From the NCBI RefSeq assembly GCF_026210795.1, contig NC_089434.1:3782001-3846000 (forward strand): DNA of 64,000 nucleotides, in the 5' to 3' direction. This DNA is from Rhizophagus irregularis. Lineage: Eukaryota; Glomeromycota; Glomeromycetes; Glomerales; Glomeraceae. Shown in pieces: positions 10,466 through 16,137 of this stretch. The position numbers were made by a program, and so were the translations under genes. The notes under the pieces were generated by a model. It saw only the letters and a list, made by a program, of their open reading frames with translations, searched no databases and was not told the origin of the DNA. Every line of letters begins with the position of its first letter. The first letter of the stretch is position 1.

Positions 10466-10563
10466 AATATATGAGGATAAAAATATATATAAAGCAGTGA
10501 AAATTCACAATAATAATAAAAGTTGGAAAATTGCTTATAATGAAATTTTGAAAATAATAAAGA

Positions 10564-11690
10564 ATGGAAGCTGACGAATATAATGAAATTGTTAAAAATA
10601 TTCATGAAAACCCAAAATTCAAATTGAAAAGAATCCAACTATATAAAGTGAAAGATGGTAAATTACTTAAAGTAATACAAAAATATGAAGTCAAAGGATT
10701 ACTATACATGATGCATAATCACAAATTATCAGCACATTTTGGAATAAAAGCAACCCAAAATAAAATACGAGAAAAGTATTGGTGGATTAAAATGATGAAA
10801 GATATTGAAAATTATGTTAAATTATATGATAGATTCCAAAGGAGGAATAAACCTCAAAAGAAAAATGAATTAAGCCCAATCAGCGTCAAAATCCCATTTT
10901 ATCAAATAGGAATTAATTTTGTAGAACCATTGCCTGCTACATCAATACATAATTGTAGCAATGGATTATTTTACTAAATGGCCAGAAGCAAGAGTGACTA
11001 AAAGTAAGGAATACAGCTGAAGAAGTAGTTAAATTTCTTTATGAAGATATTATATGTAAACATGGTTGTTCACAAAAAATAATTAGTGATGATAGATGCA
11101 AACATTTTGACAATAAGATGGTAGAATTATTAACTAAAAAGTTTGAAATAAAACATAATTTATCAACAAGTTATTATTCCTAAACTAATGGACTAGTAGA
11201 AAGATTTAATAAACACTATGTGAATTATTAGCTAAATTACAAAAAGATAAACAATGGGATGATACCTTTAGTATCAGAAATAAAACCCATTCTTTTACAA
11301 AAACTAAACCATTTATTTAGTATATAGACAAAAAGCTAATTTCATTGGAAAAGAAACCCAAACTACATAAAGATTAGACAAAATTATAGAAGAACTACCT
11401 TTTCAAAGAAACATAGCAAAAGGAGAAATTTTAAGATCTCAGAAGGAATATTATGATGGCAAAGGAAAAGGAAAAGAAGAATTTAAAATAGGTGATGAAG
11501 TATTAAAATATAATGCAGCACAGCAAAATTCTAAATCAAACAAGTTAAATGATAAATGGTCAGAACTATACTTAATACATGAAATATTGTTAAATGAATT
11601 TTACAAATTGAAAGAATTAGATGGAAAGATATTAAGAAATCCCACAAATGGAGAATTATTAAAGAAATATTTTATGAGAAAACTTAAATA
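10564..11690 (+). pseudogene. Ty3/gypsy integrase (broken)
   Basis: The first 137-codon frame contains the H2C2 region (MMHNHKLSAHFGIKATQNK) followed by KLYDRFQRRN, where both zinc cysteines of the usual C-x2-C are replaced (Y and F). The rve core follows in shifted frames: YFTKWPEARVTKSK, DIICKHGCSQKIISDD, KHFDNKMVELLTKKF and, after a TAA in place of Gln, TNGLVERFNK. The three catalytic acidic residues are recognisable (DYFTKWP, ISDD, VERFN). A C-terminal part (KIGDEVLKYN, LNDKWSELYLIHEI) ends in MRKLK and TAA at about 11690. Catalyses strand transfer of retroelement cDNA when intact. Multiple stops; dead. Confidence 0.8.
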
Positions 11691-12231: not shown

Positions 12232-12268
12232 CAAAAGAGTACTACAGGGGAGTGCATTCAAGACTAAT

Positions 12269-12276
12269 CCTAGAGG
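12269..12276. repeat. left target-site duplication CCTAGAGG
   Basis: Identical 8 bases recur at 16130-16137 in direct orientation, just outside the inverted ends of the 12277-16129 element. Confidence 0.7.
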
Positions 12277-12379
12277 AGCATAGCGAACATCCCTATTTTA
12301 TCACAATTTTGGCGATCATTTGACGATCATTTGTTGATCACTTTTCAACTTTATCACATCGCTATAATTAAATTGATTA

Positions 12380-12700
12380 GCTTAAATTGAACGATTCTAC
12401 ATAATAATATTGATCAATATATACTCAAAATTTACAAACAGCATTTGAATTTACAATATATTGAATTTTATTAGAATCGCACTATTATTAGGCAACTTTT
12501 ACTAATAATAACTTTTAAAATGCCAATAATTAGCTTCAATCGGAAAATTTTACACAATAATACATGTTTAAATTTTACAAATAATTTTAGTATTGTTTTA
12601 ATTTACTATGTATTAAATTTTATTAGAGTTGTATTACTATTGAATAATATCTATTAGTAATAACTTTTAATAAAAATAAATAAATCTATTATAAATTTAA
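12380..12700. repeat. diverged two-copy tandem repeat inside the transposon
   Basis: TTTACAAACAGCATTTGAAT...ACTAATAATAACTTTTAA (about 12430-12520) is followed by a diverged copy TTTACAAATAATTTT...AGTAATAACTTTTAATA (about 12575-12675), period about 140 bp. Non-coding 3' flank of the transposon gene. Confidence 0.4.
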
Positions 12701-12704
12701 TAAA

Positions 12705-15508
12705 TTAATATAAATTATCATAATCTGACCATTTTTGATATAAAATTTCAAATTGGTTATCTATATTTTGTTCTACATTTTCCATAATATCTTGTATATT
12801 TTCATCAATATCCTCATTTATATTGTTATTTGCATCTTTTTCAATTAAAGGCTTCTCATTATCTTTTAGTAGTGTATTTAATCTTTCTGTTAAACTATTA
12901 ATATTTTTTTTTATTTCAGATGATAAATAATTAAAACAATGGTTACAATTACCATTATATAAAGTTAAACATTCTTTATGAAAGCCATGCCCACAAATTA
13001 AAATAACATTATTATTAGGTAAATCTATATTATTATTATTAGATAGCAAACATTTTTCTGCATCACAAAATTTATCCTTATCATCAGAAGGTTTGCTTTT
13101 TGTATTCCAAGCCAATGGAAGGGCCTTTATATCAACATTAATTTTAAAGGTTGGAAGTGCAAAACTTGGATACTTATTATTATTAACTTGATTTGTATTT
13201 CCTAAATTATGAAAAATTTCATCAAAAATAGAAAGCAAAAACAAGGAAACTTTTTTTTCTAAGTAATTTAATCTAACTTGAGAAATAACTGGATTTCTTG
13301 AATTAACAAAAGCTTCTTTAAAAGAAAGGTTGCTATTTTTTTCAACATCAATAATTTTGGCCTTTTGAATAATTTGTAATGCTGTATTTGATTCAGCAGT
13401 TTGACTTCTAATAGAACTATGAAAATTTTCTACAAAATAATCATTAAAAATTGGCAAATGATTTTTTAAAATATTAGCCATTGGATGATTATTTAATTTC
13501 CAATAAAACACATCGCTTAAAAACATAAGTGATGCTTTATTATAATTATGTCATCTTAATCTTTGAAATAATACCCAAATTCTTACAACACCTTCTAAAT
13601 ATCCTTCAAAATATCCACTTCTAAAGAGTATTGTATATATATCTAAAGTAAGTGGTATAGAATTATCTAATAAATCAATCATCATTCTATATTCCATATC
13701 TTTAGAATTTCCAAAACGATGCATAACAACATTTCGAATCTTTTTCCAACCATTAAATGTTAAATCTAAAATAAGATTAATTACAGTTTGTTTTGGTTTA
13801 TGAGATAATATTTTTTTTTCTCCAAATAAATCATGGTATAATTTTTCAAAAAAAAATGATAGGTTTGAAACAAAGTTTCTCTACTATTTAATGAAATATG
13901 AAGTGGACCAATTATAGGAATTAAACTCAATATTTGTTCTGAAATACCAGATTTATTTCCTTTATTAATTCTTAATGTTATAGCTCTTCTTATATTTACT
14001 TGTCCTGGCCAATCAGCAACTACTGGAATAACATAATTATCTAAATAATTATATTCATTTTCTGACCTTTCAAATACTTTGAATAAAATATCTAAACATT
14101 CTATATAATCTTTAGTACTATGCAATGAATGTAAGATAAAATCTACTAATTTGCTATTATTTAATGATCTTAATTCTTGGTGATTTTGAATTCGACTATC
14201 ATAATCATGAACATTAAGATTTTCAACTCTATTTTCATAAGAATCTTCAATTAAGAATTGTTTCCATAATTCATTTTGTTCATAATAACTTTTACCTATT
14301 TGCTTCATAAAAAAATCCTCAAAATTTTTAATAATTAATTTAAAGTCAATCCCTTTAGGATTATGTATTAAAATATTATTTGAACAATATGGTATTGCTG
14401 CTATATTAGAATTAGAATTTAATAAAATTGTAACAAAATGAAATATATTATGTGTTTCTAATAATGTTGGCTTATTACGACGATGAATATTATGATAATC
14501 ATCAATATTTAAAATAAATATTTTTTCTATATTTTGCAAGCAGTAAATATCAACAGTTTGCTGATGCTCATTTGAAATAAGATTTTTTTGACGATCTACT
14601 GTCATTCTTCTTATTGAAAATCCTATATTTGCTAATGTATCAATAGATGATGATGATGCACCAGAAGTTTGTAAATATGATCCAATATCAGCTTTAATAC
14701 TATTAATATATTTATTATTAATACTGGCCAAAAAATAACATAAAGAAACTAATTTTTTCTTGTTATTTTCATTTGTTTTATCAGATTTAGTATGGGGATT
14801 AGTACCAATATATAATTCATCAAAAAAACCAACCAAATCTTTATCAGCTGCTTCTAACATTATTTTAAAAGTTGTTGGTTCATAAATAGGCTTTTGATTT
14901 AATTTATGTTGATTATGATAAAGAATATTGGACATTTTTATTATCTTATCACTTAAACTAACTTCATTTGGAATTGTCATATGCTCTAAAATTTCTTGAA
15001 AATCCAATTCAAGTTGTTTTAATTCTTCTCCACTATAAAAAACATCATTTCTTAATATATAAGAATAATTACCAACTTGTAGAATTTTATCATCATTTTG
15101 TTTTTTTTTTGAAATAGGTGCTTTATATTCTTCAGTTTGTAAATATTCAGGATCCTTATCAGTTTTTTTCCTACACATGCTACAAATTTCTGCAAACTCA
15201 TCTAATCCTAATACTTCAATTAACCTCTTTGGAACTTTTTCAAGATTAAGTTTTTTTGATTGTTTATTGCCTTTTGATTGTGTTTTATATAGTTCATGTT
15301 TTGGATGAGAACAAGATTTATTATATCCAAGATTATGAGTTTCATTAATGACATATCTATTATAATGAGTTTGACATAGTTTCATGCCAACTAAAACAAT
15401 TTCTTTCATTGTTACTGGAATATCTATGTTTTCAGTAATTATTCTAATTCTTCCCTTGCAGTCAGTAGAATGAAATTTACAAACATTTAATATGTTTTCT
15501 GTTTCCAT
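12705..15508 (-). pseudogene. large zinc-finger/RING protein, putative transposase, broken by one frameshift and one stop
   Basis: Starts METENILNVCKFHSTDC at 15508. Residues 1-575 run without a stop: an N-terminal Cys/His cluster (CKFHSTDC, CQTHYNR, CSHPKH, CSMCRKK; residues 10-110) and a long alpha/beta region. That region has IFILNIDDYHNIHRRNKP, VVADWPGQVNIRRA and LSLIPIIGPLHISLN. A one-base indel in a run of eight T/A near 13855 shifts the frame. The continuation reads LYHDLFGEKK, SGYFEGYLEGVVRIW, then a TGA for Arg near 13550, then FLSDVFYWKLNNHP in the 273-codon frame ending at 12705. That frame has ENFHSSIRSQT and a C-terminal RING-H2-like finger (CDAEKC, CGHGFHKEC, CNHC). The layout recalls DUF6589-type fungal proteins (D...PG..., GLxH), a weak inference. 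As the only gene inside the TIRs it is the likely transposase. Confidence 0.6.
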
Positions 15509-15539
15509 TTTTTAATTTAAATTTTTAAATGATTTATTT

Positions 15540-16060
15540 TTCAAAAATAAAGAGTTTTCTTACAAATCTTAAGCTATTTATAAAAAAAATTAAAAAAAAT
15601 TAACAATAAATTTAGTTATATAATTTTATTTGTTATCAATATTCATAAAAAAAGTCCGAAAATTAATGTTTTCATATCCAAAGTTAACTACCCAGCCGAA
15701 AATAGGCTAAATTTTTAATAATTAGAAAAATTAAAAAATAATTGATGATGTTGCAACACCCAGTGATCAGAATTTAACGATTTATAGCTTGTTGGATTCA
15801 TCTCATCAAGACGAACATTTTGATAGTAATTTCATAAATATTTATGCAAAATTGATTGAGAAATGATATTTTGAAAATTTCTATTTATTATATAAATTAT
15901 AGTATTATAATTGCAAATACAATTTTATTCATAACTTTTGTGTTACCAAAAATTATACTTGGTTACTTCGGCCATTAATTTTAAAGCAGTTAAACTATGG
16001 GCTATAAAAGTTTCAAGTTTCGCCCGAACTTCTGTGGCTTCGCCCGAAGCCTTAAAGTCC
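15540..16060. other. 5' flank of the transposon gene, non-coding
   Basis: AT-rich upstream region within the element. A CGCCCGAACTTC...CGCCCGAAGCC direct repeat lies at 16021-16050, near the right inverted end. Confidence 0.4.
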
Positions 16061-16129
16061 GATATCACCTAATTTACTATATGATCGGCAAATGATCGAC
16101 AAGGTGATATAAGCATGTTCGCTATGCTT

Positions 16130-16137
16130 CCTAGAGG
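16130..16137. repeat. right target-site duplication CCTAGAGG
   Basis: Direct copy of 12269-12276. Confidence 0.7.

Follow-up and report, generated by a model that had tools for sequence, protein, structure and literature searches.

A terminal inverted repeat transposon of Rhizophagus irregularis with nine-base target site duplications and a RING-H2-like finger protein, probably of an undescribed lineage

Introduction

Mutator-like elements (MULEs), hAT elements and KDZ elements are the closest described systems to the DNA transposon presented here, which occupies positions 12277 to 16128 of a 64,000-nucleotide stretch of the genome of the arbuscular mycorrhizal fungus Rhizophagus irregularis (G000:C6:3782001-3846000, hereafter the window). 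In the sections of PMC6446971 used here, the target site duplications of Mutator and MULE elements measure 8-11 bp, often 9, and Rehavkus elements combine a 9-bp duplication with a PHD finger. The same sections describe MULE ends as usually much longer than 14-16 bp, with some MULEs lacking long inverted ends. The part of PMC12730594 used here gives 8 bp as the rule for hAT duplications, with published variants of 5-7 bp, and 7-8 bp for KDZ.

An earlier note, made from the letters of this DNA alone, described the locus as a DNA transposon of no recognized transposase class, either a new superfamily or a branch related to KDZ and DUF6589 (PF20231); of DUF6589 we found no mention in the open-access literature searched. 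We read the element as a class II cut-and-paste transposon with terminal inverted repeats (TIRs) and a 9-bp target site duplication (TSD), moved by a single protein of about 920-1054 amino acids (aa) and belonging to an undescribed lineage, and we assign this reading a probability of about 0.85. A search of open-access literature by titles and abstract openings, outside subscription journals and Repbase, found no published description of it.

Inverted ends, duplications and an empty site

The window has a GC content of 25%, and the assembly searched comprises 146.7 Mb in 32 contigs. The element and its borders in the window are as follows.

12277-16128, no strand: whole element, 3852 bp; contig C2 has a 3852-bp copy, 99.6% identical, with another duplication
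12268-12276, no strand: left TSD copy, 9 bp, TCCTAGAGG
16129-16137, no strand: right TSD copy, 9 bp, TCCTAGAGG
12277-12290, plus strand: left TIR, 14 bp, AGCATAGCGAACAT
16115-16128, minus strand: right TIR, the same 14-base word as AGCATAGCGAACAT, reversed
12309-12330, plus strand: left subterminal inverted block (inverted repeat I7), with CGATCATTTG words at 12313 and 12324
16081-16102, minus strand: right subterminal inverted block, with CAAATGATCG at 16089

The identical 14-base ends and the matched subterminal words that the earlier note had reported are both confirmed, the word CGATCATTTG standing at 12313 and 12324 and, reversed, at 16089. It also lies close to the ends of three other copies (L011, L013 and L055), and the left block probably holds transposase binding sites. 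The duplication has to be corrected. The direct CCTAGAGG that had been seen at both edges is present, but its length is nine bases and not eight; the T left outside the right-hand CCTAGAGG is part of the duplication TCCTAGAGG.

The nine-base length recurs in other copies. At one mismatch or fewer, the TIR word occurs at 277 sites, against 17 for the reversed control, and from 100 listed sites of these 277 we drew 31 pairs, in each of which a reverse word follows a forward end word at a distance below 7 kb. The exact repeat abutting the right end is nine bases long in 24 of the 31 pairs and eight bases long in none (0/31); with one mismatch allowed the nine-base repeat is present in 27/31, and the cross-pairing control gave 0/930. 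Beyond these pairs, four further copies (L048, L049, L011 and L013) show exact nine-base repeats by eye. The left 9-mers all differ among the 31 pairs and no two left flanks are alike, so that the variable flanks expected of copies with both ends do exist, at nine bases in place of the predicted eight. Because the duplication is 9 bp and not 8, the analogy to hAT and KDZ elements that had been drawn from it is unsupported.

A search of the genome with the left-end DNA returned 51 match rows. In 29 of them the match opens at query base 78, precisely where the element starts; apart from the window, only four rows have their start 1-6 bases ahead of it, and one covers nothing but the flank (bases 1-77). 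Similarity of copies running past the element's edge, which the earlier note had named as a sign against its proposal, was not seen in this search. An empty-site paralog (L050, C6:4455300) is related to the window flank and is without the element; the left flank aligns to it at 82% over 273 bp and the right flank over just 16 bp, and the nine bases are precisely what the two alignments have in common. Inverted ends, a duplication of fixed length at independent sites and an empty site are features of a TIR (class II) DNA transposon, and together they bear out the classification as such.

The window copy and the copy on C2 are 99.6% identical over the full 3852 bp and have different duplications; the insertion is therefore recent. 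Three other copies (L043, L044 and L035) are 99.8-99.9% identical over 4.55 kb. Nineteen of the 31 pairs are shorter than 2.2 kb; their match to the long elements is partial and they are at most partly coding, so that they are probably moved in trans.

Some observations on individual copies stand beside these results. Non-coding derivatives fall in two MITE-like size classes (MITE, miniature inverted-repeat transposable element), one of about 620 bp (L036, L038, L042 and L045) and one of 776-803 bp (L021, L026, L027, L029 and L031-L033), with exact 9-bp duplications in 9/11. One candidate for a full-size element (L017, G000:C1:3208339-3212344) was rejected, being a short copy into which about 3 kb of foreign DNA has inserted; it is a case of nested transposons, and the insert carries a 303-aa frame which we take to be Tc1/pogo-like. 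In the window, 1.3 kb to the left of the element, a 138-aa open frame on the plus strand (10561-10977) presumably resembles the zinc-binding region of a Ty3/gypsy-type integrase.

The gene and its protein

The sole long gene of the element lies on the minus strand, as the earlier note had it for 12705-15508. It is not one continuous frame in the window: a frame change at a poly-A/T run near 13850, followed by the in-frame TGA at 13551-13553, interrupts this copy. Its parts, all on the minus strand, are given below.

13781-15508, minus strand: 5' part of the broken gene, 575 aa, frame 1, with the N-terminal Cys/His cluster
14483-14509, minus strand: NIDDYHNIH, in the 5' part
14000-14017, minus strand: ADWPGQ, in the 5' part
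13877-13909, minus strand: GPLHISLNSRE, in the 5' part
13554-13862, minus strand: middle part of the gene, in a second frame that ends at TGA 13551-13553; its first codons overlap the frame-change region
12705-13550, minus strand: 3' part of the gene, 281 aa, the last open part
13407-13433, minus strand: VENFHSSIR, in the 3' part
12936-13070, minus strand: RING-H2-like finger, in the 3' part, with weak RING matches

Intact frames exist elsewhere, with 1054 aa in L043, L044 and L048, 932 aa in L013 and 918 aa in L011 (L016 and L015 being further labels for the L043 and L044 loci). A 920-aa version is encoded by L055 (VBAS01000141.1), a 4276-bp contig filed under a soil Bacteroidetes metagenome-assembled genome, where it is presumably fungal contamination. 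The L055 protein shares 69% identity with L044 in the best segment and 98% with L011 in the core, and the contig has its own inverted ends, ACAGGGCGGACAT. Among four intact frames the ratio of nonsynonymous to synonymous substitution rates is 0.24-0.44 in all six pairs, and the intact versions are under purifying selection.

The N-terminal Cys/His cluster and the C-terminal RING-H2-like finger were both confirmed on the minus strand. The finger reads C-x4-C (C-x2-C in lineage 2, see below), then C-x-H-x2-H-x2-C, then C-x2-C, a spacing which we take to fit RING-H2; seven of its eight ligand positions are invariant in 9/9 sequences compared from three lineages, and the second H is present in 8/9. 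In the longer form of the protein, part of the N-terminal Cys/His region is repeated. Residues of about 70-260 in L044 contain the two units, with a run of ESIE/NESIE-like repeats between them.

The four motifs that had been proposed as candidate catalytic positions each hold residues invariant in the nine sequences. In L044 numbering these are D459/D460 (IDDYHNIH), D624 (ADWPGQ), H662 (GPLH) and E819 (VENFHS), the W of ADWPGQ being F in lineage 3 (ADFPGQ). The D-to-H spacing is 38 residues in 8/9 sequences and the H-to-E spacing 157-158 in 9/9, and 153-187 residues separate the first candidate D from the second, counts of which some include unremoved intron sequence. Other acidic positions, for example D561, E669, D737, D740, D748 and D791, are invariant too, so that the triad is a candidate one, chosen by order and context. 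MULE and hAT-like transposases of the DDE type (named for their Asp-Asp-Glu triad) typically show this succession of D, D, xxH and E, the E standing after a long interval. The invariant D...D...H...E and the RING-H2-like finger fit a DDE-type transposase, as judged from the residues and their order.

Three divergent lineages

A protein search with the 575-aa piece of the window found paralogs of 31-39% identity, and a search with a lineage-2 core linked the lineages, of which there are three, with 39-44% mutual identity over about 370 core residues. Lineage 2 (L051-L054) has probable introns. A scan made without lineage-1 sequence found identical 16-base ends, AGCATAGGGAAAGTTT, with the duplication TCTTAACGT, at L053, which was the only one of the four lineage-2 loci to give such an end pair in that scan. 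All nine exact genome matches of the 16-mer AGCATAGGGAAAGTTT lie at lineage-2 genes; with up to two mismatches there are 127 matches versus 75 in the control, and these are mostly chance. The exact nine-base duplication is found in three of four lineage-2 end pairs (C6, C11 and C17), the C11 left end itself having one mismatch, and with one mismatch in the fourth (C18). Another word, AGCATAGGGAACA, was tried as a lineage-2 end and rejected; it has 115 sites versus 58 in the control, nearly half of them may be chance, and many of those listed are lineage-1 ends.

For lineage 3, seven loci were scanned for 7-base ends with flanks of 7-11 bases. In L060, AGCATAGTTAAA ends are flanked on either side by CATGAGATG; in L062 the ends are AGCATGGTTAA and the flanks TTTCTTTAT. 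The scan had further output: ten more candidates, of low complexity, in L062, a single AT-rich one in each of L060 and L061, and in L054 a site of a different kind with a 10-base flank; L051, L052 and L059 yielded nothing. Shuffled sequence scored twice in L062 and never in the remaining six loci. The case for L062 therefore rests on its longer end agreement and on the recurrence of its left end in L059, because shuffles and other candidates also score there.

The AGCAT(A/G)G ends and the nine-base duplications are common to the three lineages. Since these lineages are only 39-44% identical and have kept the same ends and duplication, both features have long remained associated with the protein. 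The earlier note had counted paralogous genes lacking TIRs at all loci as evidence against its proposal; three loci (L052, L054 and L061) are without recognizable ends, and others have them. L061 (G000:C21:121000-126000), without recognizable ends, may be a fourth, degenerate lineage of the same protein.

The protein could be a passenger or regulator, with the transposase of another element moving these copies, and the short pairs, for which movement in trans is likely, speak for such an arrangement. Against it, the gene fills elements in three lineages that are about 40% identical, all of them with matching ends and 9-bp duplications; selection on it is purifying; and no second frame of at least 250 aa occurs in the intact copies L043, L044, L048 and L013. 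We regard a passenger role as very improbable. That the gene product is the transposase, as the earlier note supposed, is likely.

Comparison with known transposases

Pfam, NCBIfam and PDB sequence searches gave no significant transposase match, in agreement with the view that no recognized class is matched above the cut-off. Pfam RING families appear only below the cut-off, the best being zf-RING_Vps41 (E 0.00012, 22.1 bits versus a cut-off of 30.3). HEPN_RiboL-PSP (E 0.0011 in 1/16 members; E 0.0026 and 18.2 bits versus 28.4 for the consensus core) and CRIPT (E 0.0036) are below it as well. Three intact proteins have no KDZ, MULE or hAT profile match, and no relatives were found in viral contigs, plasmids or phages.

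The element may instead be a highly divergent Mutator/MULE or Rehavkus-like transposon, with the same mechanism and a transposase that has drifted past profile recognition; we consider this doubtful, yet a possibility of real weight. The two share a TIR architecture, a 9-bp duplication, a zinc finger on the transposase and, by eye, the D, D, xxH, E order of this genome's own MULE proteins. The nine bases fall within the 8-11 bp range, so that the element works like Mutator in duplication length. On the other side, the MULE profile (PF10551), for which 150 of 407 genome candidates were scored, has none of its listed matches on these elements by eye. The ends are short, with 14 identical bases in the window copy and 16 in L053, where MULE ends are usually much longer; short ends are not decisive, since some MULEs lack long ones (PMC6446971, in the sections used). 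No SWIM, FLYWCH or CCHC finger is among the profile matches. The element differs further in its RING-H2-like C-terminal finger and in the interval between its first and second candidate D. A comparison of hidden Markov models (hhalign) with seven genome MULEs gave probabilities of 0.09 and 0.24%, at low power.

A KDZ or DUF6589-related element, as the earlier note had suggested, is unlikely. KDZ elements are present elsewhere in this genome, and their transposases are large fungal proteins with zinc clusters. DUF6589 may have a similar motif order, and it is the top, insignificant local match for one of eight lineage-3 pieces (from L060; E 0.35, 9.9 bits versus a cut-off of 27). However, the 23 genome matches of the KDZ profile (PF18758) all lie off these elements by eye, and the part of PMC12730594 used here gives KDZ duplications of 7-8 bp, versus nine here. 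The DUF6589 profile has no match in the genome, nor in any control genome, and none for two consensus cores. With hAT elements the transposon shares short inverted ends and D...D...E with a long insertion; it differs in that neither an 8-bp duplication nor the hAT dimerization domain was found, the listed matches of that domain's profile (PF05699; 150 of 836 genome candidates scored) including, by eye, none on the elements.

Several results weigh against the reading of the element as an undescribed cut-and-paste lineage moved by its own protein. No transposition was observed. Four of the 31 pairs (L021, L041, L044 and L046) are without a nine-base repeat even at one mismatch; by eye the repeat is shifted or partial in L021 and L041 and missing in L044 and L046, and L044 carries the intact 1054-aa frame. 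L055 has inverted ends and yet no matching 9-bp flanks. In the deeper lineages, L059 has a left end only, its right end being absent from the stretch fetched, and no complete end pair of the AGCAT(A/G)G kind was found in L052, L054 and L061. The AlphaFold2 models, built from four-row alignments, are poor, with mean predicted local distance difference test scores of 31.6 and 39.1, so that the RNase H-like fold is putative. PDB sequence and profile searches gave no significant match. The hhalign comparison with the seven genome MULEs and three KDZ pieces gave no signal, and its power is low because KDZ versus MULE gave none either. All considered, we rate the element as a new, deep lineage of DDE-like TIR transposons.

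A possible mechanism

Binding to the inverted ends and the subterminal GATCATTTG words, or assembly there, may be helped by two zinc-binding modules, the N-terminal Cys/His cluster and the C-terminal RING-H2-like finger. Cutting of the ends and their joining to target DNA would fall to a DDE-type site, with D460, D624 and E819 (L044) as candidates, and H662 of GPLH would take the place of the xxH motif known from other such transposases. A 9-bp stagger at the target, once repaired, would leave the 9-bp duplication. Intact copies probably also mobilize the non-coding derivatives of 620-800 bp in trans.

Significance for the Rhizophagus genome

About two-thirds of the transposable elements of R. 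irregularis are reported as unclassified. In its curated library, full-size DNA transposons were kept only with a match to a known transposase profile, and short elements that have no transposase were eligible as MITEs (PMC11075540, for both points in the parts used here). Such a filter would probably miss this lineage.

We tentatively propose, at slightly less than even odds, a new superfamily of eukaryotic cut-and-paste transposons with AGCAT(A/G)G ends, a 9-bp TSD and a DDE-like core joined to a RING-H2 finger; it would include at least three lineages, which share about 40% identity in the core, and would have been recently active in an arbuscular mycorrhizal fungus. Its members would sit among the elements left unclassified, because pipelines require a known transposase profile match for full-size elements. 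The lineage offers a concrete, recently moving element with a searchable signature, its AGCAT(A/G)G ends and its 9-bp duplication. If the fold is DDE-like and lies outside the MULE clade, the element would add a superfamily to the catalogue, and would raise the question of why each of the nine sequences compared retains a RING-type finger on a transposase.

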